NCBI RefSeq assembly: GCF_032854445.1
Contig: NC_088297.1
Location: forward strand, 3,967,991-4,031,990
Direction of reading: 5' to 3'
Source: Liolophura sinensis
Lineage: Eukaryota; Mollusca; Polyplacophora; Chitonida; Chitonidae
DNA: 64,000 bases
Numbering within the stretch: the stretch's first letter is position 1; every line of letters starts with the position of its first letter. The notes under the pieces were generated by a model, which had not been told where the DNA came from, searched no databases, and saw only the letters and a program-made list of their open reading frames with translations. Positions 3,067 to 64,000 of this stretch are shown piece by piece. The translations under genes and the position numbers were made by a program.

Positions 3067-3424
3067 AGTCTGCTAGCTCAGTTGGTAGAGCGTCCGCTTC
3101 GGGAGCGATAGATCCAGGATCAATCCTGGATTAGGTCACACCTAAGACCTTAAAAGAGGAAGTCGTAGCTTCCGCATTAAGGAAATCAGAATTAAGGGGA
3201 AGTGCAACGACTGGTTGACCCGTATAAGTATAATGGCTCGGGTATGTCAGCTTACTTGCCTTCAGTAAAGTCATCTCAGTGAAGCAGTACTAGATAAAAG
3301 AGTGGTGGATATCCGTCCTACAGCAAGGAGGCACATTACACGTACATGCAATCTAAGGATTCCTTCGTCGTCATATGACTGAAAAATGGTTAAATACGAC
3401 GTTAAACCCTAAGCACTCACTCAC
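3067..3424 (+). mobile_element. tRNA-derived SINE, family A
   Basis: The tRNA-like head has an A-box (TAGCTCAGTTGGTAGAGCG) and a B-box-like GATCAATCCTGGATT. A body follows with GACTGGTTGACCCGTAT and GGAGGCACATTACACGT, and the tail reads GACGTTAAACCCTAAGCACT plus CACTCACTC. At least seven other copies occur in the window. Slightly degenerate and nearly full length. Confidence 0.9.
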
Positions 3425-8240: not shown

Positions 8241-8373
8241 CAGGTAATATTCAAGCACGTCAGGTGATATTCAAGCACGTCAGGTGATATTCAAGGGAGT
8301 CAGGGGATCACGTCAGGTGATATTCAAGCATGACAGGTAATATTCAAGCACGTCAGGTGATATTCAAGCACGT
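8241..8373. repeat. 20-bp short tandem repeat
   Basis: Six to seven copies of CAGGTGATATTCAAGCACGT, with one irregular unit containing GGGAGTCAGGGGATCACGT. Confidence 0.9.
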
Positions 8374-9089: not shown

Positions 9090-9160
9090 TGCATCGGCCG
9101 GGAATCGAACCCGGGTCACCCGCGTGGCAGGCGAGAATTCTACCACTGAACCACCGATGC
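9090..9160 (-). tRNA. tRNA-Gly (anticodon GCC)
   Basis: Complete 71-nt tRNA. Acceptor stem GCATCGG pairs with CCGATGC, discriminator A (complement of 9090), D arm GTTCAGTGGTAGAAT, anticodon stem CTCGC/GCGGG with loop CTGCCAC (anticodon at 9126-9128), T arm CCGGGTTCGATTCCCGG. No intron. A run of A on the plus strand at 9072-9082 becomes a strong oligo-T Pol III terminator just downstream. The A-box and B-box are internal and canonical. Unlike the SINE heads in this window it is a true, foldable tRNA. Confidence 0.97.
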
Positions 9161-12333: not shown

Positions 12334-13465
12334 ATGTAAGTTATACGAGTGTCTGTCTGAAGACTTCACGGACAATAACTAAACCGTATACCTGTACTTT
12401 TTACTGAAGTGATTCCAGGTAAGGGTTTTGATAACGGAGGTCTGATCGAGGCAGCGGAGGAATGATTTTCCAGGGGGTATTACGTATTTTATACTGGTAG
12501 CTCAATTTGTTCCCACGGGAACTGAACCAGTGCTGGTCTAGTTTTGATAACTGGCACATTTAGGGCAATGTGAATTGTAACTGAATACTGGCTAGCCAGC
12601 AATGGCGTGGTACTGGGTGCGTTAAGGATGTGACGTGCCGGTACTGCCTTAATACGCTGCTTCAACACCGGAATCGGCCCACTGGTGTCATGTTTGTTGG
12701 GGTAGCTGTGAAGTTGCATGTCCCTCTTGTATTTGGGTCATGTTTGTATTTTCTGCTTGTCTAATGTATAGTGGGGGCCTCCGTGGCTCAGTCGTTTAGT
12801 GCGCTAGTGCAGCGTAATGACCCAGAAGCCTCTCACCAATGCGGTCGCTGTGAGTTCAATTCCAGCTCGTACTGGCTTCCTCTCCGGCCGTAAGTGGGAA
12901 GGTCTGCCAGCAGCCTGCGGATGCTTGTGGGTTTCCCCTGGGCTCCGCCCGGTTTCCTCCCACCATAATGCTGGCCGCCGTCGTATAAGTGAAATATTCT
13001 TGAGTGCGGCATAAAACACCAATCAAATAAATAAATCTAACGTATAGTTTTGATTCATTGGTTTTCAGGCGATGCTCAACTCCCCCAACCCGTGATGACC
13101 TCCATGAGCTTGTTCAGTTAATGAAACAGATGTTAACTCATCAGTTCCCAGTGAATGGTCAGTTCCCAGTCAGTCGGTTCTCAGTCAGTGGATATGGGCC
13201 TCTCTACTGCGCCTTCTGTCGGCAGAACGGAGAGACGGAGATGTACTATCTTTCCCACAAGCTGAAAGACAGATTTGGAAACGTCACCTGCCCTGTTCTA
13301 CGTGCGTATGTTTGCCCGCTGTGCCGCGCCACTGGGGACGTGGCTCACACCATCAAATACTGCCCACTTGGGGACAAACAAGCCTCCATACCGTTGGCCA
13401 AGATGGTACACTCCGGGAGGAATTGCAGCGGCAAGAAGCGATATCGGATGCACCGTTACACCTAG
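12334..13465 (+). CDS. nanos: Nanos-type RNA-binding zinc-finger protein (5' end uncertain)
   Basis: Nanos proteins bind RNA with Pumilio and repress translation, chiefly in germ cells. The exon 13069-13465 encodes two CCHC fingers with exact nanos spacing: C-x2-C-x12-H-x10-C, then C-x2-C-x7-H-x4-C, starting YCAFC and ending YCPL. The stop is TAG at 13463-13465. The exon follows a good acceptor (TTGGTTTTCAG, AG at 13067-13068) with branch-like CTAAC at 13037-13041. Upstream, ATGCAT|GTAAGT gives a strong donor at 12336; joining the two creates an ATG split across the intron (AT at 12334-12335 plus G at 13069) and a 132-aa protein with fingers at about residues 48-99. That joining is inference: the frame before 12334 has a TAA, and a different first exon, perhaps in the gap, is possible. 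The intron holds a full-length SINE. The finger identity is near certain; the N-terminus is not. Confidence 0.85.
12774..13036 (+). mobile_element. SINE family B, full length, inside nanos intron
   Basis: Complete copy. A-box TGGCTCAGTCGTTTAGTGCG, B-box GAGTTCAATTCCAGC, conserved core with TTTCCTCCCACCATAATGCT, then ATATTCTTGAGTGCGGCATA and tail CACCAATCAAATAAATAAAT. It ends at the CTAAC presumed to be the intron branch point, about 32 bp before the nanos acceptor. Confidence 0.95.
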
Positions 13466-23159: not shown

Positions 23160-24685
23160 TCACTTTTTGGCGTACAAGAATGAGAAGTCCACCTTTGGAT
23201 CTTCGCCCAGACCATACTGTAAGAAAGCATATTCAAATTCTGACTTGGAGATCCTTCCGTCACCATTTTTGTCCATTCTTCTGAAAGTTGACTTGCAAAA
23301 CTCCTCATTTGTAATACCGCGCTGGCTGTAGAGCTTTTTCCACTCGGCAAACGTCACACCTTGGCCGTTTGCGACGTCGAGAGACCGGAAGTAGACGTCG
23401 ACGACCGGAGGCATGAACTCTTGCGCGTACCAGTCTGTTTTGTGCACAAGGAGAGCTCCGCTGATCCAGTCTTTCCGCCCGATAGAGGTCGCTCCTGTCT
23501 CCAGTCCGGCCGCCTGACAGACCCGCTGGAAGTAATTCTTGTAGGTGACTGCTAGCTGCACACCCAGATAGACACGATCTTTCTTAATAAGTTCGACTGG
23601 AAAGGTCATCAGTGTTTTCAAGGTCAAGGTGTCCGAGTTGTCCAAATTCAGGAAGTCAAAGGTTATCCCCGACTTTTTTTCCATGAACGACTCGCCATTC
23701 TCTGTCTGAAATAAAACCAGGCACATCATGCTGTATATGACTGTAGTGAGCCATTTTCTTTGATTTTGTAAGTTATTGATCATTGATATTGATTTTACAA
23801 AGATGTCAGATTTGCTGACATGCCGATATGATGATATCCTCCTGGAAAAATGTAAGTCTCTGCAATCTTATATGTAAACGGGGCCTCTGTGGCTCAGTCG
23901 GTTAGCGCGCTAGCGCAGCGTAACGACCCAGGAGCCTCTCACCAATGCGGTCGCTGTGAGTTCAAGTCCAGCTCGTGCTGGCTTCCTCTCCGGACGTAAG
24001 TGGGAGGGTCTGCCAACAACGTGCGGATGGTCGTGGGTTTCCCCCGTGCTCTGCCCGGTTTCCACCCACCATAATGCTGGCCGCCGTCGTATAAGTGAAA
24101 TATTCTTGAGTACGGCGTAAAACACCAATCAAATAAATAAATAAATAAATTATATGTATAAAAAAAAATCGGTTAGTTTTAGTCTATTGTCTGAGTGATG
24201 GTAGAATGTCTTCTGTTATTATAACACAATAGTGTTTTATTCAACACAATATTCTGTTGGTTTAACAGAATCCTTATGTTAAATTGACAGAATATTTGTG
24301 CTGTATTTAACAGAATAATCTGCTGTAATAACAGAACACATTCCCGCGTCACTCAACAGATTGACAACAGATTTTCTGTCAGATTTAACCGATTATTATT
24401 TGAGGGTAATAGTATCATTTTATTAATTTATTTATTTATTTTGATTGGTGTTTTACGCCGTACTCAAGAGTATTTCACTTCTACGACGGCGGCCAGCATT
24501 ATGGTGGGTGGAAACCGGGCAGAGCCCGGGAGAAACCCACGACCATCCACAGGTTCAGTAACATTTTATATTTGTCTCTTAGAAACCGTGTCTTAGGGCG
24601 AACTTTTCGGACACGTGAGATTACTCGTCTTCCGGTTTCATATCGCCTTTGTTGTAAACCCCTCCTGTATTTCTGTGACTGTGGG

Positions 24686-26845: not shown

Positions 26846-27887
26846 TTAGTTTTTGGAAAACAAGAAGGAGTAATCATTACCGGGGTTTACACCAAGAGCA
26901 AACTCTCTAAAAGCGTACTCAAATTCGTCCTTCGAGATGGCGCCGTTGCCATTTTTGTCCATCCTGGCAAACGTTGACCGACAAAACTGATCGTCAGTGA
27001 TACCACGAAGCTCGTACAACCGCTTCCATTCGTTGAGCGATATTTCATGGTTGTTATCGATGTCAAGACACTGGAAATAAACGCCCACTATACTTGTTAC
27101 GAACTCCGTCTTGTACCAGTTGGTTTTGATCACGTGGTGACTTCCCTTAATCCAATCCTTCCTCGTGATAGAGGTCGCCCCAGTCTTGAGGAGCGCCGCC
27201 TGGCAGATCCGGTCGAAGTAGCTTTTGTAGGTCAAGGCCAGACGGGCACCCAGCTCGACAAGCCCGTTCATTAGAAGCTGGATAGGAAATGACATCATGG
27301 TCGCCAGGGAGAGCTCTTCTTCATGATCCAAGTTGAGGAAGTCAAAGATTATTCCAGCCTTCTTGGCCCTGAATAAGTCTTCCGAGTTGCTCTACAGAAG
27401 AATGGAAACCTCATTTAGTAAAGCAGCTGCGTATTCAGTAGTTTCGTAATACAAAAGATCCATTTACAACGATTTACCGCCCTTGGCGGTCATGTGGGAT
27501 CACCACTGAAGAATGGAGGCCGGGAATATTCCATAACTAGGATTGAACCACCAGCTCGTGTGTCCCAGATTATCAGGTGTAACTTTGTACAAGCAACTGT
27601 GGCCTCTTTCGGATTATGCACCTATGTTTTCTGACTAACTATTAACAGACGACAGGAGACAGCGTGAAGTGGGCTCACATGATCACTAGTAACAGTGCCC
27701 GGATCAGAGACGCAGAGCTATGTGTAGATTCACAGCCATGTATTGGAGCCGCGTGCTGCCTTATATGTGATACACACCACACTGACGTCTATGTAACCTC
27801 ACAACCTCCTCTGATTTACCGCAGTTCCCACATACCGTAGTCTAACTGGAATTTTATCGGCAAATAAAAAGGCAATATTGGGAAAAG

Positions 27888-30778: not shown

Positions 30779-33065
30779 AGATCTATAGCTGAGAGACAAA
30801 GATGTGATGGTATTATTGAGTATGTATGCAGATCTATAGCTGACAAACAAAGCTGTGACGGTATTATTGAGTATGTATGCAGATCAACAGCTGACAAACA
30901 AAGCTGTGACAGTATTATTGAGTATGTACGCAGATCTACAGCTGACAAACAAAGCTGTGACGGTATTATTGAGCATGTATGCAGATCTACAGCTGACAAA
31001 CAAAGCTGTGACGGTATTATTGAGTATATATGCAGATCTACAGCTGACAACCAAAGCTGTGACGGTATTATTGAGTATGTATGCAGATCTACAGCTGACA
31101 ACCAAAGCTGTGACGGTATTATTGAGTATGTATGCAGATCTACAGCTGACAAACAAAGCTGTGACGGTATTATTGAGTATATATGCAGATCTACAGCTGA
31201 CAAACAAAGCTGTGACGGTATTATTGAGTATGTACGCAGATCTACAGCTGACAAACAAAGCTGTGACGGTATTATTGAGTATGTACGCAGATCTACAGCT
31301 GACAAACAAAGCTGTGACGGTATTATTGAGCATATATGCAGATCTACAGCTGACAACCAAAGCTGTGACAGTATTATTGAGTATATATGCAGATCTACAG
31401 CTGACAAACAAAGCTGTGACGGTATTATTGAGCATGTATGCAGATCTACAGCTGACAAACAAAGCTGTGACGGTATTATTGAGTATGTATGCAGATCTAC
31501 AGCTGACAAACAAAGCTGTGACAGTATTATTGAGTATGTACGCAGATCTACAGCTGACAAACAAAGCTGTGACGGTATTATTGAGTATGTACGCAGATCT
31601 ACAGCTGACAAACAAAGCTGTGACGGTATTATTGAGTATGTATGCAGATCTATAGCTGACAAACAAAGCTGTGACGGTATTATTGAGTGTATATGCAGAT
31701 CTATAGCTGACAGACAAAGCTGTGACGGTATTATTGAGTATGTACGCAGATCTACAGCTGACAAACAAAGCTGTGACGGTATTATTGAGTATGTACGCAG
31801 ATCTACAGCTGACAAACAAAGCTGTGACGGTATTATTGAGTGTATATACAGATCTATAGCTGACAAACAAAGCTGTGACGGTATTATTGAGTATATACGC
31901 TGATCTATGGCTGGCAAACAAAGCTGTGACGGTATTATTGAGTATATATGCAGATCTACAGATGACAAACAAAGCTGTGACGGTATTATTGAGTATGTAT
32001 GCAGATCTACAGCTGACAACCAAAGCTGTGACAGTATTATTGAGTATATATGCAGATCTACAGCTGACAAACAAAGCTGTGACGGTATTATTGAGTATAT
32101 ACGCTGATCTATGGCTGACAAACAAAGCTATGACGGTATTATTGAGGATATATGCAGATCTACAGCTGACAAACAAAGCTGTGACGGTATTATTGAGTAT
32201 ATACGCTGATCTATGGCTGACAAACAAAGCTGTGACGGTATTATTGAGTATATATGCAGATCTACAGCTAACAGACAAAGCTGTGACGGTATTATTGAGT
32301 ATATATGCAGATCTACAGCTGACAAACAAAGCTGTGACGGTATTATTGAGTATGTATGCAGATCTACAGCTGATAGACAAAGTTGTGACTGTATTATTGA
32401 TTGTATATGCAGTTCAACAGTTGACAAACAAAGCTGTGACGGTATTATTGAGTATGTATGCCGATCTATAGCAGACAAAGCTGTGACGGTATTATTGAGT
32501 ATGTATGCAGATTTATAGCTGACAGACAAAACTGTGACGGTATTATTGAGTATGTATGCAGATCTACAGCTGATAGACAAAGTTGTGACTGTATTATTGA
32601 TTGTATATGCAGTTCAACAGTTGACAAACAAAGCTGTGACGGTATTATTGAGTATGTATGCCGATCTATAGCAGACAAAGCTGTGACGGTATTATTGAGT
32701 ATGTATGCAGATTTATAGCTGACAGACAAAGCTGTGACGGTATTATTGAGTATGTATGCAGATCAACAGCTGACAGACAAAGCTGTGACGGTATTATTGA
32801 GTATATATGCAGATCTACAGCTGACAATCAAAGCTGTGACGGTATTAATGAGTATATATGCAGATCTACAGCTGACAGACAAAGTTGTAACAGTATTATT
32901 GAGTATATATGCAGATCTACAGCTGACAGACAAAAGCTGTGATGGTATTATTGAGTGCGTATGCCGATCTATAGCAGACAAAGCTGTGACGGTATTATTG
33001 AGTATATATGCAAGATCTTTAGCTGACAGACAAAACTGTGACGGTATTATTGAGTATACGTGCAG
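30779..33065. repeat. 51-bp minisatellite, about 45 copies
   Basis: Unit starts GATCTACAGCTGACAAACAA and continues with GCTGTGACGGTATTATTGAG. 51 bp is exactly 17 codons, so long ORFs appear in several frames on both strands (up to 498 codons), made only of the 17-residue translation of the unit. Each unit contains ACAGCT...AGCTGT, a 6-bp inverted repeat around a 9-nt loop. A 200-bp block (three 51-mers plus one 47-mer) is duplicated: landmarks at 32372 and 32572. Divergence rises toward the right end. Confidence 0.97.
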
Positions 33066-40415: not shown

Positions 40416-46227
<5,812 letters not shown>

Positions 46228-48302: not shown

Positions 48303-48812
48303 TTTGTTTATTTATTTGATTGATGTTTTACGTCGTACACAAGAATATTTCACTTATACCCCGGCGGCCAGCAGCATGGCGCATTGGAGTGAATGAGTGC
48401 ATGAGGTTTAACGTTGTACTGAACAATTTTTAAGGCATATGACGACGAAGGAATCCTTAGAGCGCATGTAATGTGCCTCCTTGTTGCAGGACGCATTTCC
48501 ACTGCTCTTTCATCTAGTGCTGTTTCACTGAGACCATTTACCGAAGGCAAGTAAACAGCCCTGCCCAAGCCATTATACTGATACGGATCAACCAGTCGTT
48601 GAACTATACCATTCATGCTGAACGCCAATCGAGGAAGTTACAATTTCCTCTTTTTAGGTCTTAGATGTGACTCGACCTAGGACTGACCCTAGATCTACCG
48701 CTCCCGAAGCGGACGCTCTACCAACTGTGCTATCGGGGCCGGTATATGGTGCATTGGAGGAAACCGGGCAGAACCTGGGTGAAACCCACGACCATCCACA
48801 GGTTGGAGGAAG
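48303..48812 (-). mobile_element. SINE family B interrupted by a family A insertion
   Basis: The left part 48303-48389 carries the tail and core (TATTTGATTGATGTTTTACG, CGGCGGCCAGCAGCATGGCG); the right part 48746-48812 continues in register (GGAGGAAACCGGGCAGAACC, CCCACGACCATCCACAGG). The interruption is the family A copy at 48390-48745. Confidence 0.9.
48390..48745 (-). mobile_element. SINE family A, full length, nested, with target duplication
   Basis: Complete copy from GAGTGCATGAGGTTTAACG to tRNA head CTATCGGGGCCGG. Flanked by ATGGCGCATTGGAG (48376-48389) and ATGGTGCATTGGAG (48746-48759), a 14-bp target-site duplication with one mismatch. Confidence 0.92.
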
Positions 48813-52590: not shown

Positions 52591-55500
52591 ATGGCGGCGG
52601 CCTTGCTGCGCCGTGCGACGGGGATCGTCAAGTCGATTGCACAAACTTGTGTAAGTTTTTCGTGCTGACTGAAAATAACAGCCAGGAAACACAATTTGAA
52701 AGCGTTCTTAAGACTAACTGGTACAGCAATTAATGAAAATAATACGGTTTTAACATGAATAGTTTGTACATAACGAGAACTATGACCACAATAACATATA
52801 GGCCTAACGCAACACAGAAAAAAGAAAGAAATAAGACAGAAGGATTAATAGTTTTCTCTAAGTTGAACTTCTACGCTTCGTCGTTCCATTAACCAGTTAA
52901 GGATATATGGTAAAATGTAATTTTGAAATGTTGGTTTTGGAAGATCTTTGGTACTGGACTAGTGGAAAGCAAAGTTCGAATCCAGCCTATGGCGGTCTTA
53001 CTGAATAAGCCCCATCAGCATGTCCGGAAAAATCATCAGAAAAATCTTCTAATTTGTGGAAAATGTGGACTGTGCCAGCAGTTGTACCTGATAAACATAT
53101 ATTCACATAATCTCAAAGCGTTGAAAACAGGAAATTATGAAAAAAATGTCAAGATTCGACGAAATAAAAATTTCCAGTTTTACATCTATGTATAGACTAC
53201 TTTGGAATATTCTGGTGTCGTCTTGCCCGAAAAACACAAAACAAACTTGGCACTGCGTAAGCTCACAAAAGCAAATATCACCAACTGGTCATTAAAAGTG
53301 TTATTTTTACCTGCACATTTTATGCAGCTCTCACTCTGTACCTATCTCCATGGGGTCGCTGTGAGTCCAAGTCCACCTCATGCTGGCTTCCTTTCCGGCC
53401 TTATATGCCAATATCTGCCAGGAACCTGTGGATGGTCGTGGGTTTCCCGCGGGCTCTGCCCGGTTTCCTCCCGCCATAATGCTGGCCGTCATCATATTAA
53501 TGAAATATTCTTGAGTACGGCATAAAACACCAATCAAATAAAAGACTAAGTGCAGCTACATCTAGCAGTATACCGGACATATTTATCCGTAGAAGTGAAG
53601 AGATATATACACAATTTACTGTACATGTACCTATCTCAACTGACGCTTACATAAATCATTGTTATTATGTGTAGGTAAAGGTTATTTTTTTCATTAACAA
53701 GAAAAAGTTTATTATCTGTGTGTATAGTTTTATATTAATTATGAAATTTAAAATTTGTTTTTTGACTAATGCATTTGTTTTGACTGCCTTTGCAGGCATT
53801 TCCCGAGTCTCTCCTTCATATGTCGCCAAACTCAGCGATGTTCGCACCAGTGGCATCTCAGCAGCGCCCCCTGATGGACTGGAGGATGATGAAGGACGAT
53901 AAAAGAAGAAAAATGACCAAGGAGTATTTCCCGCTAAGAACCAGAATCAACGCTATTCGCAAAAACACAATTTTGCCTAAAGAGATTCAGGTAGTAACAG
54001 AGAGATTCATGTAGTAACAGAGATATTCAGGTAGTAACAGAGAGATTCAGGTAGAAACAGATAGATTCAGAGAGATTCAGGTAGAAACAGAAAGTTTCAG
54101 GTAGAAACGGATAGATTCAGAGAGATTCAGGTAGAAACAGAGTTTCAGGTAGAAACAGAGTTTCAGGTAGAAACAGATAGATTCAGAGAGATTCAGGTAG
54201 AAACAGAGAGATTCAGGTAGTAAAAGAGAGATTCAGGTAGTAAGAGATATTCAGGTAGTAGCACGTGGAAATTGGCAACAGCTGCCACATCCAGTAGCAT
54301 AAGTTTCCATGTATTCTTGCACTCAGGCCTCCCATTAAGTGAATGCGCCTTGTTAAAGGAGCAGACCACATGTAAGTAAAGAATGCATTATCCCAAAGCC
54401 TTTCGGGGTGGTGGGGTTGGTGGGGGGGGCAGTGCCCTAATAGTCTCTCAACAATGCAGTCGCTGTGAGTTAAAGGTAGAGAAAGCATAAAAATGACATA
54501 AAGTTCAGATGAAAGAGTGCGAAAAAGTTATTCCTAAATGGGGTCTTCAGTATTTTTTTCTGATTTTTCCTTAAGGAGAAAAAGACACTTGAAAATAATC
54601 TTTGTATGGTGGGTATTAGAGACCACCGTTTGGCATTTATAGTCTTGTTTAATAATGTCATAGATGAGGATGTAACACAGGTTTGATAAATATTTTTGCA
54701 CTAGAATTTGTTCTTTTCAGCTAACAAATGTATTAAACCTCAATTTGGATCATATTTATATATTTAATATGTTTATAAATATTATCATAATTTAGGTTAA
54801 ATGCATATCTTTCGATATAAACAGCAAATTTACATTCAAATAAATTTATTAGACAAGCATCATATTTTCAAATACCCTTTTCTCTTGAAAAAAAATCCCC
54901 AAAAACATTAAAGATCATATTTGTAAATAAGTTTTGATGCTCTTTTGTTTGATTTTGGCATCATTTTCATGTTTTCTTCTCCTGTAAAGTCCAGCTCATG
55001 CTGGCTTCCTCTTCGGCCTAACGTGGGAAGTTTATCATCAACCTGCAGATGGTCGTGGGTTTCCCATGCTGGTTTCAAATTGTATGGTCTCTACATGATA
55101 ACTTTACTTCTTTTTAAACAGTGAATAAAATGCAACCAACGTTTAAGGTTCGACTTTTTTTGATAATATTGAACTAGGTGAAGCACAGTGATGTCTTTTT
55201 CAGATGTCTGTTTAAAACCTGTGATGTCACAGTATTTCAGCCTGTTCAGTATGGCCCAGATACAACTCTGTAATAGTCTGTAAAACTCTGAAAACCTTGT
55301 TTGAAACCTGCTTGAAATGGCTTTTCAACTGGTGCATACTTTATTTGAGGTTGGTCTCTTTCTTTCAAAAGAGAGTGTGACCGACTGACTGATATGAACA
55401 TCTTTGAGCCTCACCGGCCCGGATAGCACAGTTGGTAGAGCGTCCGCTTTGGGAGAGTAGATCCAGGGTCAATAATGGGTCGGGTCACACCTAAGACTTT

Positions 55501-56180
55501 AAAAGAGGAAGTTGTAACTTCCTCGCTTGGCGTTCAGCATGAAGGTGATAGTGCAACGACTGGTTGACCAGTATCAGTATAATGGCTCGGGCGTGGCAAC
55601 TGATATGCCTTCGGTAAGGCGTCTCAGTGAAGCAGTACTAGATAAAAGAGCGGTGGAAATCGGATCCGTCCTGCAACAAGGAGGCACATTACACGTACAT
55701 GCACCCTAAGGATTCCTTCGTTATCATATGACTGAAAAATTGTTAAGTACGACGTTAAACCTCAAGCACTCACTCACTCACTCATTCTTTGAGCCTCTTA
55801 GTTGGAGCTGAAAACATGATCTTCATTTACCAGATTAGAGACTCATCCTCCAATGTTGAGGACATAGGTCCAACTGTATTGTATTCTCTCCCTCTACAGT
55901 TTGCAGCAGAGGATTAAACAGTAATTTATGATGGGTTCCAAGAGTAGAAAATCAGTTTTTCTGAATTTTATGAGTAACTTTAGCTTCTCTGTTTCAGGAG
56001 TTGGCAGACCAGGAGATTGCCTCCCTTCCTCGCGACAGCTCCTATGTGAGAATTCGTAACAGGTGTGTGATCACTGCGCGACCTCGTGGGGTATTGCGAC
56101 GCTGGAGACTTAGTCGAATTGTGTGGCGCCACCTAGCAGATTATAATAAACTCTCTGGAGTTACTCGCTCCTGTTGGTGA
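52591..56180 (+). CDS. MRPS14: Mitochondrial small-subunit ribosomal protein uS14m
   Basis: Structural protein of the mitochondrial 28S subunit. Three exons: 52591-52650 ([20 protein letters not shown], donor GTAAGT), 53796-53990 (acceptor TTTGCAG, donor GTAGTA), 55998-56180 (acceptor CTGTTTCAG, stop TGA). All junctions are phase 0; the product is 145 aa, slightly longer than vertebrate MRPS14. Exon 1 gives a basic, Arg-containing presequence. Exon 2 has [13 protein letters not shown] and [14 protein letters not shown]; exon 3 has the family signature [15 protein letters not shown] and [19 protein letters not shown], ending in Trp. No zinc-binding CxxC pair, as in other mitochondrial S14. The exon-2 donor is the first member of a ~20-bp tandem repeat, and a second degenerate repeat starts in the last codons. 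SINEs occupy both introns. Confidence 0.97.
53350..53541 (+). mobile_element. SINE family B, 5'-truncated, MRPS14 intron 1
   Basis: GGTCGCTGTGAGTCCAAGTC, CATGCTGGCTTCCTTTCCGG, GGGCTCTGCCCGGTTTCCTC and tail CACCAATCAAATAAAA. Confidence 0.92.
53979..54260 (+). repeat. ~20-bp minisatellite spanning the MRPS14 exon-2 splice donor
   Basis: Unit AGAGATTCAGGTAGTAACAG, 20 bp, with 10-bp (ATAGATTCAG) and 16-bp variants, about 13-14 copies. The first unit contains the real exon end GATTCAG and donor GTAGTAAC at 53991, so nearly every unit is a copy of the donor site. Confidence 0.9.
54428..54478 (+). mobile_element. SINE family B, small fragment
   Basis: GTCTCTCAACAATGCAGTCG followed by CTGTGAGTT; degenerate head portion. 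Confidence 0.55.
54987..55066 (+). mobile_element. SINE family B, middle fragment
   Basis: AGTCCAGCTCATGCTGGCTT, CCTCTTCGGCC, CCTGCAGATGGTCGTGGGTT. Could be the continuation of 54428-54478 after an insertion. Confidence 0.7.
55417..55788 (+). mobile_element. SINE family A, full length, MRPS14 intron 2
   Basis: Head GATAGCACAGTTGGTAGAGC, body GACTGGTTGACCAGTATC, GTGAAGCAGTACTAGATAAA, GGAGGCACATTACACGTACA, and tail GACGTTAAACCTCAAGCACT with CACTCACTCACTC. About 200 bp upstream of the exon-3 acceptor. Confidence 0.95.
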
Positions 56181-57197: not shown

Positions 57198-57227
57198 CAA
57201 CAGTGTTGATAATCGAAATAGACCTAC

Positions 57228-57548
57228 AATGTTAAACCCCAAGCACTCGCTCACCCAAAATATACCGACGTTAAAACCCCAAGCACTCGCTCAAAAGATA
57301 CTTATGACGTTAAACCCTAAGCACTCGCTCACTCAAAATATACCTACAATGTTAAACCCCAAGCACTCACTCACCCAAAACATATAGACGTTAAAACCCC
57401 AAGCACTCGCTCACTCAAAATATACCTATTACATTAAACCCCAAACACTCTCTCACTCAAAATATACCTACGACATTAAACTCCAAGCACACATTCACTC
57501 AAAATATACCTATGGCGTTAACCCCAAGCACTCGCTCACTCACTCAAA
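57228..57548 (+). repeat. Minisatellite derived from a SINE family A tail
   Basis: About eight units of roughly 36-45 bp, each containing GTTAAACCCCAAGCACTCGC followed by TCACTCAAAATATACCTA. The TTAAACCCCAAGCACTCACT sequence is the 3' end of family A SINEs elsewhere in the window. Confidence 0.9.
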
Positions 57549-61716: not shown

Positions 61717-64000
61717 TCATGCTCGTACAGTTTCCATGGGAACAGCCTCCGCTGAGTACTTATCAAACTTTCCTTTCTTCTTTGGACTATGATTGGTCTT
61801 AGCTTTTGATTTGCAACATTTTTGATAAACAACACAAAAAATTCCGATAAAAACGAAAAGTCCAACAACGACACCGACAACGATGTAGACAATCAGCAAA
61901 TTGGTTTCAGCACTCTTTTCGTCCAGGTCAGTGACGGTGACATTGGGACGCACACCAAAGGTGATGTTTTCTCCATCAGGTTGAGGTGTGAAGTCAGGGG
62001 AGACAACCTGTGGTGTTGTCATTGGAGGCGGATTTCCATCCTTGGTTACTATCACTGTCAAAGACAGCGTGCTAGATTTGGGTGGTATGCCATCATCGGT
62101 TGCCATGACAACCATCTGAAATTTTTGACCAATCAAAAATGGCTTTTGTCTCTGCAAAGATCCAGTGGTTTGGTCCAGTGAAAAATCTTTTGGTTTATTG
62201 AAGCTGTAAGTGATGCTATCCCCATCCTCATCTGTTGCCTTGACAACCAACACTTCACCTTCAGCCAATCCCTCGGCAACATAAAACACTGGCTGCAAAA
62301 TGTCCGCAAATATAGGATAATGGGAGTTCATTGGTCCAAAAACCAATTCATATTGCACACTTTCTTGGAAACTAGAGTCATGGTGATCTATAAAATGAGC
62401 TAAATTTCTCTGTTCTATATAGGATGTTGACCATGAGTTTGTTACTGGTAATGCTCTTGTTAAAGTCTTGCAAGAAGCTGTTAACAAAGCATTCCCGCGT
62501 AAAACCTGAGCAACGATGTTATCGTCTACCTGAACATACCCCCAGCCAGACTTCAAAACTTTGACTTCCACACGTATGATGGAGTATCTTTTAGCACCTT
62601 TATGCTCATTGCGGTCAAAGCTCACGCTTTCAACAACCCACTGCACAACATCGTGCACAGCCTGACCATCGAATCCGTCGTACAGCCACTCTGGAATGCT
62701 GTTAAAATCGTCGTCAACGAGGAATGCTGGGATAGGTGAACCACTCTCTGACAAAACCGTTACACGATGAAACAAATGATGATGGTCAACTTGAGTGATA
62801 TTTGTTAAGTATGAGTTTCCGTATAAATCGCTGTTGGCAAAAGTCAAATTGAAACCCTTTATGACAACGGAAGTGTTCGATGTTATACCCCACTCTACTG
62901 TTGAACTTGTGTTGGGTGACATGTCTCCAATGTCTACAGACAGTGTTGGCAAAACATTTCCACCAGCTAACCGAGTGAATGTAACCTGGAAAGGGATAGA
63001 ATGTCCACCAGATGTCACGTTTAGGTGAAAATTGATTAAGGTGAGATTACGGCACAATCCGGCACCGTTGTTGGTTACCATGGCAGCGACTGTTGATGAA
63101 CAGTTGGCTCGCGGAACCGAGGACAGATTATTACGGGAAAGATTTGAATCGTAAAATAAGCGCAGGGTGACATTTTCTACTGGCACAATGATCATGTAAT
63201 TTGGGGATAATTCTTGCAGAAAATCCCCGCCGGCTACCTGATAGGTCATTTTGCAGCCAACATAAAACAAGGTTTTTTCCTAAGGCAGCTGAACAGTTAA
63301 GAGGAACGATTATCCAATCAGCAGAGGCCACCACTCCTGCTGCTAGGCGACCAGTACCATCCACTCCCATGATTCCAGATAAAGATGGCTTCCCTGCACA
63401 AAACAAAGGTATGATTTGCAGGTGAATTTGCTTTTTACTAATTAACCAAACTGGTGTTTGACAAGCACGGTAAAATCTTATTTATGGTTCACTAGTAAGT
63501 TATGGAAGTATTACATTTTTATAGTTTATCAAAAATATCCTAAAACACAGTTGTTGTTGTTAAATGACAAAGCCATTAGGCTTCAAGTTGACCCTCCTGT
63601 TTCAAACTTTAAATTCTTCAAATGCAACTGGATGAAAAAGCAATATATATCCTGTAAAATTTTAAACCAATCTGACTCAATATGCTTTCGCCCTGCTCAT
63701 AAAAAGTGAACTAATTTTGTAAGTTTTCGTCAAGTGGTTCTGTAGATGTCGTCGTTTTGTCAAAGAGTTTACAGACAGACGGACAAACTTATGGTTATGC
63801 CATGATTAAGAGTAAAACTGGCATACTTAGGCAATAATTGACACTGAAACTGTTGAATCTAACTGTACCTATTGAGAAACAGTTCTGCTCCACAGTTTCA
63901 TGTTTGTGCATGGCCTGAAAGTCAAGTTCCAGTTTTATATTCTGCATCACGGGGCCAGCTGTGTTGTCTAGTTTCACTTTCACTCTGACCTCCTCCCCGA
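61717..64000 (-). CDS. Single-pass membrane protein with a cadherin-like repeat (3' end of gene)
   Basis: Not a protein I can name. Two exons are visible: 63869 to beyond 64000 (5' end outside the window; donor GTACAG, phase 1) and 61717-63393 (acceptor TTTTGTGCAG). The join restores a Gly codon and reads CFSIG|KPSLSG. The long exon encodes an extracellular part with many N-x-S/T sites and beta-rich segments (DGTGRLAAGVVASADWIIVP, then TLFYVGCKMTYQVAGGDFL), then one cadherin-like repeat (VFYVAEGLAEGEVLVVKATD, DSITYSF, FSLDQTTGSL, ATDDGIPPKSSTLSLTVIV), a short linker, a transmembrane segment of ~25 hydrophobic residues beginning LLIVYIVVGVVVG, and a basic cytoplasmic tail of ~38 residues with KKKGK. 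The frame shifts once, at an A6 run (63273-63278): a one-base difference there joins the two parts. Probably cell-surface adhesion or recognition. Confidence 0.8.
63273..63278 (-). other. Frameshift at homopolymer in the membrane-protein exon
   Basis: Upstream frame reads NCSAALGKN, downstream frame reads TLFYVGCKMTYQ. The change falls exactly at six A (minus strand), and the downstream frame has an in-frame TAG just before it. Sequencing or assembly error is most likely; an allele-specific break is possible. Confidence 0.7.

Follow-up and report, generated by a model that had tools for sequence, protein, structure and literature searches.

A tandem array of splice-donor copies at an MRPS14 exon edge in the chiton Liolophura sinensis

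The MRPS14 exons and the tandem array

The window analyzed here is a stretch of 64,000 nucleotides from the chiton Liolophura sinensis (RefSeq assembly GCF_032854445.1, contig NC_088297.1, positions 3,967,991 to 4,031,990 of the forward strand), and its subject is a gene for the mitochondrial ribosomal protein MRPS14 in which the 5' splice site (donor) of a coding exon is itself the first unit of a minisatellite. Two MRPS14 coding exons lie on the plus strand. The first (53796–53990) follows a TTTGCAG acceptor and ends in phase 0 with the residues LPKEIQ; the second, the last coding exon (55998–56180), encodes the Ribosomal_S14 domain (Pfam PF00253, E 7.1e-19) and closes with the stop codon TGA at 56178–56180. 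Their numbering as exons 2 and 3 is by analogy only. The intron between them (53991–55997, 2007 bp) ends in the acceptor TTTCAG at 55992–55997, ∼1.7 kb beyond the array.

The 39-residue piece encoded by exon 2 alone had no match in a Pfam search. When the two exons are joined, their product matches 49 distinct PDB sequences at E ≤ 0.001. The five best chains, which are named 28S ribosomal protein S14, mitochondrial, or MRPS14 and which we take to be mammalian, match with E values of 6.9e-43 to 8.2e-41 in alignments that span all 98 residues without a gap, junction included, with the residues from DWRMM onward aligned and the exon end KEIQ placed against K-x-L-Q of the MRPS14 chains across the junction. 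Because a gap-free protein results from joining 53990 to 55998, the donor is fixed at 53991 and the acceptor at 55997; each of the other 12 GTAG donors of the array would insert residues at KEIQ/ELADQ (a slash marks a splice boundary), shift the frame, or bring in a stop. A second MRPS14 copy or a retrocopy was also considered and rejected, as a protein search of the genome, in which only the best candidates were scored, gave three matches, namely the two exons described here and a weak one (E 0.08).

The minisatellite occupies 53981–54260 on the plus strand. Tandem Repeats Finder (TRF) reports a 20-bp unit in 14.8 copies (score 203) and, within it, a 50-bp period at 54018–54216 in 4.1 copies (score 265); the best score among 20 dinucleotide-shuffled windows was 60. 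The motif CAGGTAG occurs 12 times in the array compared with a mean of 0.18 and a maximum of 3 in 500 shuffles of it, and elsewhere in the window it is found twice on the plus strand and four times on the minus strand. These comparisons reject a chance origin of the array. The array begins with 10 nt that are exonic and coding, and the preceding 20 nt share 7 of 20 positions with the unit. From these results, we conclude that the array of splice-donor copies is real, as proposed in a preliminary description of this DNA that had placed the donor GATTCAG/GTAGTAAC at 53990/53991 as the first unit, a placement with which both the coordinates and the homology agree.

The array contains 16 TTCA starts, which the unit listing divides into 13 GTAG-type units, 20 bp or in some cases 18 bp long, and three 10-bp stubs that have no GT. 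Twelve of the 13 carry CAG/GTAG, among them the authentic 5' splice site CAG/GTAGTAAC (53991–53999), and the remaining one, unit 2 at 54011, carries CAT/GTAGTA and is the sole unit in which position −1 is not G. This leaves 12 further donor-type units; the preliminary description had spoken of 13 or so. Along the array, three GTAGTA units are followed by seven GTAGAA units with the stubs interspersed and then by three more GTAGTA units, so that an interior (54046–54211) of GTAGAA-type units in 20+10+20 or 20+10+18 blocks has GTAGTA-type units at both edges. The stubs (54066–54075, 54116–54125, and 54182–54191) read TTCAGAGAGA, which is the unit minus GTAGAAACAG; this would fit a deletion between CAG direct repeats of the kind that slippage leaves. 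RNA of 53971–54270 showed no unusual structure (z −0.08).

The MRPS14 intron also holds, at ∼55416–55790, a tRNA-like stretch that by eye resembles a short interspersed nuclear element (SINE) and ends in CTCACTCACTCA. It looks molluscan, on our presumption, and had no Rfam tRNA match at the gathering score. A TRF array at 57216–57542 consists of sequence similar to the tail of this stretch.

Predicted donor strength and the products of downstream donors

Donor strength was predicted with assumed donor-matrix frequencies and from the duplex formed with an assumed U1 5' end, whose sequence agrees with a published one (PMC9311317). The real donor has a matrix score of 4.37 and a U1 duplex of −9.0 kcal/mol in a register with one U1 base bulged. 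That register is computed to be the best duplex for all CAG-preceded GTAGTA units, and donors that pair with U1 in a bulged register are a described class (PMC9311317). Four downstream CAG/GTAGTA copies are identical to the real donor in both measures (4.37, −9.0), and seven GTAGAA copies have a matrix score of 4.63 and a U1 duplex of −8.0. Consequently, all but one of the 12 further GTAG units roughly equal the real donor in predicted strength (4.37–4.63; U1 −8.0 to −9.0), in keeping with the ladder of decoy donors proposed in the preliminary description; the exception is unit 2 (0.84, U1 −2.4). A GT at +3, within GTAGTA, would add a single in-frame valine and pairs poorly (0.55, −2.3).

Six donors picked by hand from an EF1-alpha-like (EF1A-like) gene of the same window, which may have others, have matrix scores of 8.59–11.58 and U1 duplexes of −9.4 to −11.4 (versus 4.37 and −9.0 for the real MRPS14 donor). 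The label and exon ends of that gene, which has several exons at ∼40416–46210 on the minus strand, are our assumption, based on its translations. Among the 134 GTs in 53991–56000, the score of the real donor is equaled or exceeded by 22 others, with 54372 (9.09) at the top, and on the plus strand of the whole window 333 of 4042 GTs, the real donor included, reach its score. These figures indicate that the real donor is weak and is not singled out by its sequence.

Reading-frame outcomes were derived by joining each of the 13 GTAG-type donors to exon 3, and only the first of them yields MRPS14. Use of the +20 donor would shift the frame and lead to a stop 52 nt into exon 3. Each of the 11 donors from 54031 on would reach the TAG at 54012–54014 after the residues VVTERFM, and this is the in-frame ATG TAG of the second unit (54009–54014) that had been noted earlier with the prediction that use of a downstream donor soon meets a stop. 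The distance from this stop to the junction is 16 nt for the +40 donor, 36 nt for the +60 donor, and 66–240 nt for the remaining nine. In mammals, targets of nonsense-mediated decay follow a 50-nt rule, whose applicability to a chiton is an assumption; if it holds, and if there is no intron in the 3' untranslated region, transcripts from the nine donors from +90 on would be decay targets.

Because the 20-bp unit is 2 modulo 3 and a TAG accompanies each GTAG donor, an early stop follows, and the protein cannot be made longer by way of these donors. Three options had been left open for the array, namely selected redundancy, a source of unproductive splice forms, and neutral slippage. Redundancy is unsupported because all 12 further donors shift the frame or meet a stop and none replaces the first without destroying the reading frame. 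Slippage is the best fit, and unproductive forms are its likely consequence.

Known arrays that contain a donor

In human ABCA7, a variable number tandem repeat of intron 18 adjoins exon 18 and has the true donor as its first GT (PMC5954066). Its 25-bp unit lies in a C-rich region and is present in ∼12 to 427 copies, and the array is polymorphic and disease-associated (PMC5954066). Retaining one extra unit puts the transcript out of frame and exposes it to nonsense-mediated decay; such retention amounts to 2 ± 1%, independent of array length, and longer arrays lead to more skipping of the next exon (PMC5954066). The MRPS14 array is alike in that it directly follows an exon, includes the true donor, and has a unit (20 bp here) that is not a multiple of three, whereas the ABCA7 array starts at intron base 1 and the MRPS14 array repeats 10 exonic bases as well.

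The minisatellite of human IFI6 (G1P3, 6-16) is reportedly the subject of work by Turri et al. from 1995. It provides several donors, and two downstream repeat units are used, so that three mRNAs are made (PMC4526556). The difference is that protein isoforms are reported there, whereas the 12 downstream donors in MRPS14 give stops. Tandem repeats at exon-intron boundaries also alter splicing in human segmental duplications, where 27 intron modifications are described after inspection (PMC2812944). They share with MRPS14 the tandem repeat at such a boundary; they concern recently duplicated primate genes and novel introns, whereas MRPS14 is a single-locus housekeeping gene whose intron runs on well beyond the array.

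In the Rogers model, introns are gained by tandem duplication of an AGGT-containing segment, and a fission-yeast case has 24-bp copies (PMC4974935). The MRPS14 array likewise consists of tandem copies of a segment that contains AGGT, and the model differs in that the MRPS14 intron is not bounded by two copies. Intron gain by this route was rejected, because the array does not extend to the acceptor (55997) and no match to the unit pattern (≤2 mismatches) is present at that site.

The MRPS14 array resembles the ABCA7 and IFI6 arrays in that the authentic donor (53991) is a unit of the array (53981–54260), with similar predicted strength in 11 of the 12 further GTAG units. Donor-containing repeats at exon edges are thus already known in human genes, and on the precedents of ABCA7, IFI6, and the segmental duplications the MRPS14 array is a further case of that kind. 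The MRPS14 array itself was not met in the literature on such repeats, of which no search by the name MRPS14 formed part. Compared with ABCA7 and IFI6, use of downstream donors is not expected to give a full protein, and the last coding exon would be lost if the next exon were skipped.

Origin of the array and its meaning

The unit pattern, searched with at most two mismatches in the 609-Mb genome, has 12 places, 11 of them in the array and one elsewhere (with two mismatches), and the backward control of the pattern has two. A 701-base query around the array has a single match in the assembly. With 11 of the 12 unit matches inside it, the array very likely grew in place from the exon edge. Triple CAGGTAG ladders are found genome-wide at 1198 places (560 + 638) on both strands compared with 1205 (610 + 595) for the backward control; these places overlap inside long arrays, and those listed, all on one contig (C1), form ∼18 separate arrays by our own grouping. 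The counts are no higher than in the control, and such ladders are not rare; the unusual part is the start on a real donor. The window holds about 10 larger arrays by our own count from TRF, and on a rough inference some overlaps between an array and a donor are to be expected in a genome of 609 Mb.

Two other arrays of the window are recorded here. One, at 8241–8373, also has units of ∼20 bp, CAGGTRATATTCAAG, with a donor-like CAGGT. The other, at 30779–33057, has ∼45 copies of a 51-bp unit and, on each of the two strands, long open frames in several of the frames, as is possible when the unit is a multiple of three; it is probably not coding.

In our judgment, the MRPS14 array is probably a minisatellite that a weak donor seeded and that grew neutrally, accompanied by a small amount of unproductive splicing. 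A 20-bp segment made up of the last 10 exon bases and the first 10 intron bases would have undergone tandem duplication in place, and slippage or unequal exchange would then have enlarged the array; the nested 50-bp blocks, the 18-bp variants, and the donor-less 10-bp stubs are counted for a slippage origin. Every duplication would have taken the donor along, with the protein code holding the exon copy and the other copies left to drift. U1 is predicted to pair about equally with nearly all units, of which only the first of 13 makes MRPS14. Downstream units would be used infrequently (probably, to go by the ABCA7 report) to give frameshifted or truncated forms, and the array may be essentially neutral or slightly costly.

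As to what weighs against neutral growth in place, the genome search skips very common words and, at two mismatches or fewer, would miss more diverged copies. Among the units, 7 of 117 cells deviate in the donor core (−3 to +6) as against 11 of 143 outside it (p 0.63). When position +5 is left out, a post hoc choice, the core has 1 of 104 compared with 11 of 143 (p 0.016), and when minimal events are counted, the p-value for core versus rest is 0.04–0.10. Because the units share ancestry, these p-values are not clean and are suggestive at most; support for selection acting on the donor cores is weak and shifts with the way in which changes are counted.

An unlikely rival is that the downstream copies bind U1 without being cut and so help the exon to be recognized despite its weak donor (+4 G, +5 T). 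The six EF1A-like donors picked from the window are all predicted to be stronger than the real donor, predicted U1 pairing of −8.0 to −9.0 is kept in 11 of the 12 downstream GTAG units, and the core columns vary less if +5 is set aside. In addition, engineered U1s directed to intron sequence downstream of a donor raise exon inclusion, and in one case such a U1 activated a cryptic donor (PMC10572768), which counts against the idea. So do the absence of a genome-wide excess of CAGGTAG ladders, the unpreserved core when +5 is counted, the three stubs that lack a donor, and the fact that every natural copy is itself cuttable. In a bolder version, an array of U1 sites might boost an exon with a weak donor, with copy number setting the balance between functional MRPS14 and stop-containing forms; we would give this version slightly less credence still.

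Regulation of MRPS14 through nonsense-mediated decay, with the choice of donor tuning its level, appears improbable. The unit of 2 modulo 3, the TAG at each donor, and the single TAG met by 11 of the 12 downstream donors all accord with it; chance copying gives the same outcome, however, the data show nothing of regulation, and the products of the +20, +40, and +60 donors would escape the 50-nt rule. An assembly error in the copy number or at the junction is very improbable: repeats are error-prone, but this array is just 280 bp long with distinguishable units, and the protein search of the genome places both MRPS14 exons in order on one contig. Least credible is the insertion at the exon edge of a dispersed repeat or array that supplied the donor, for although tandem arrays abound in the window and the genome, the unit has a single match elsewhere, at two mismatches, and the array opens with 10 nt that belong to the codons of the protein itself.

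Other features of the window lie apart from MRPS14. A Nanos RNA-binding zinc finger (PF05741, E 1.6e-25) is encoded at 13031–13462, and two EF-hand open frames on the minus strand (23163–23867 and 26849–27391), alike by eye, are perhaps a local duplicate pair. A 520-residue open frame at 61720–63279 on the minus strand has a cadherin domain (E 9.3e-08), and inspection by eye suggests a membrane-spanning segment close to its end. There is a tRNA gene at 9090–9160 on the minus strand (Rfam RF00005, 65.7 bits), and two tRNA matches are just over the gathering score (48668–48739, minus; 3074–3129, plus).

The MRPS14 array offers a natural experiment in which about a dozen donors of nearly equal predicted strength stand in a row and only the first is productive. 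It could show position rather than sequence deciding the choice of donor, and how a splice site that seeds a minisatellite tolerates the growth of that minisatellite. If the first donor dominates, as is likely, the array would be a minor curiosity. It also shows that an arrangement described for human genes can occur in a housekeeping gene of a different organism.
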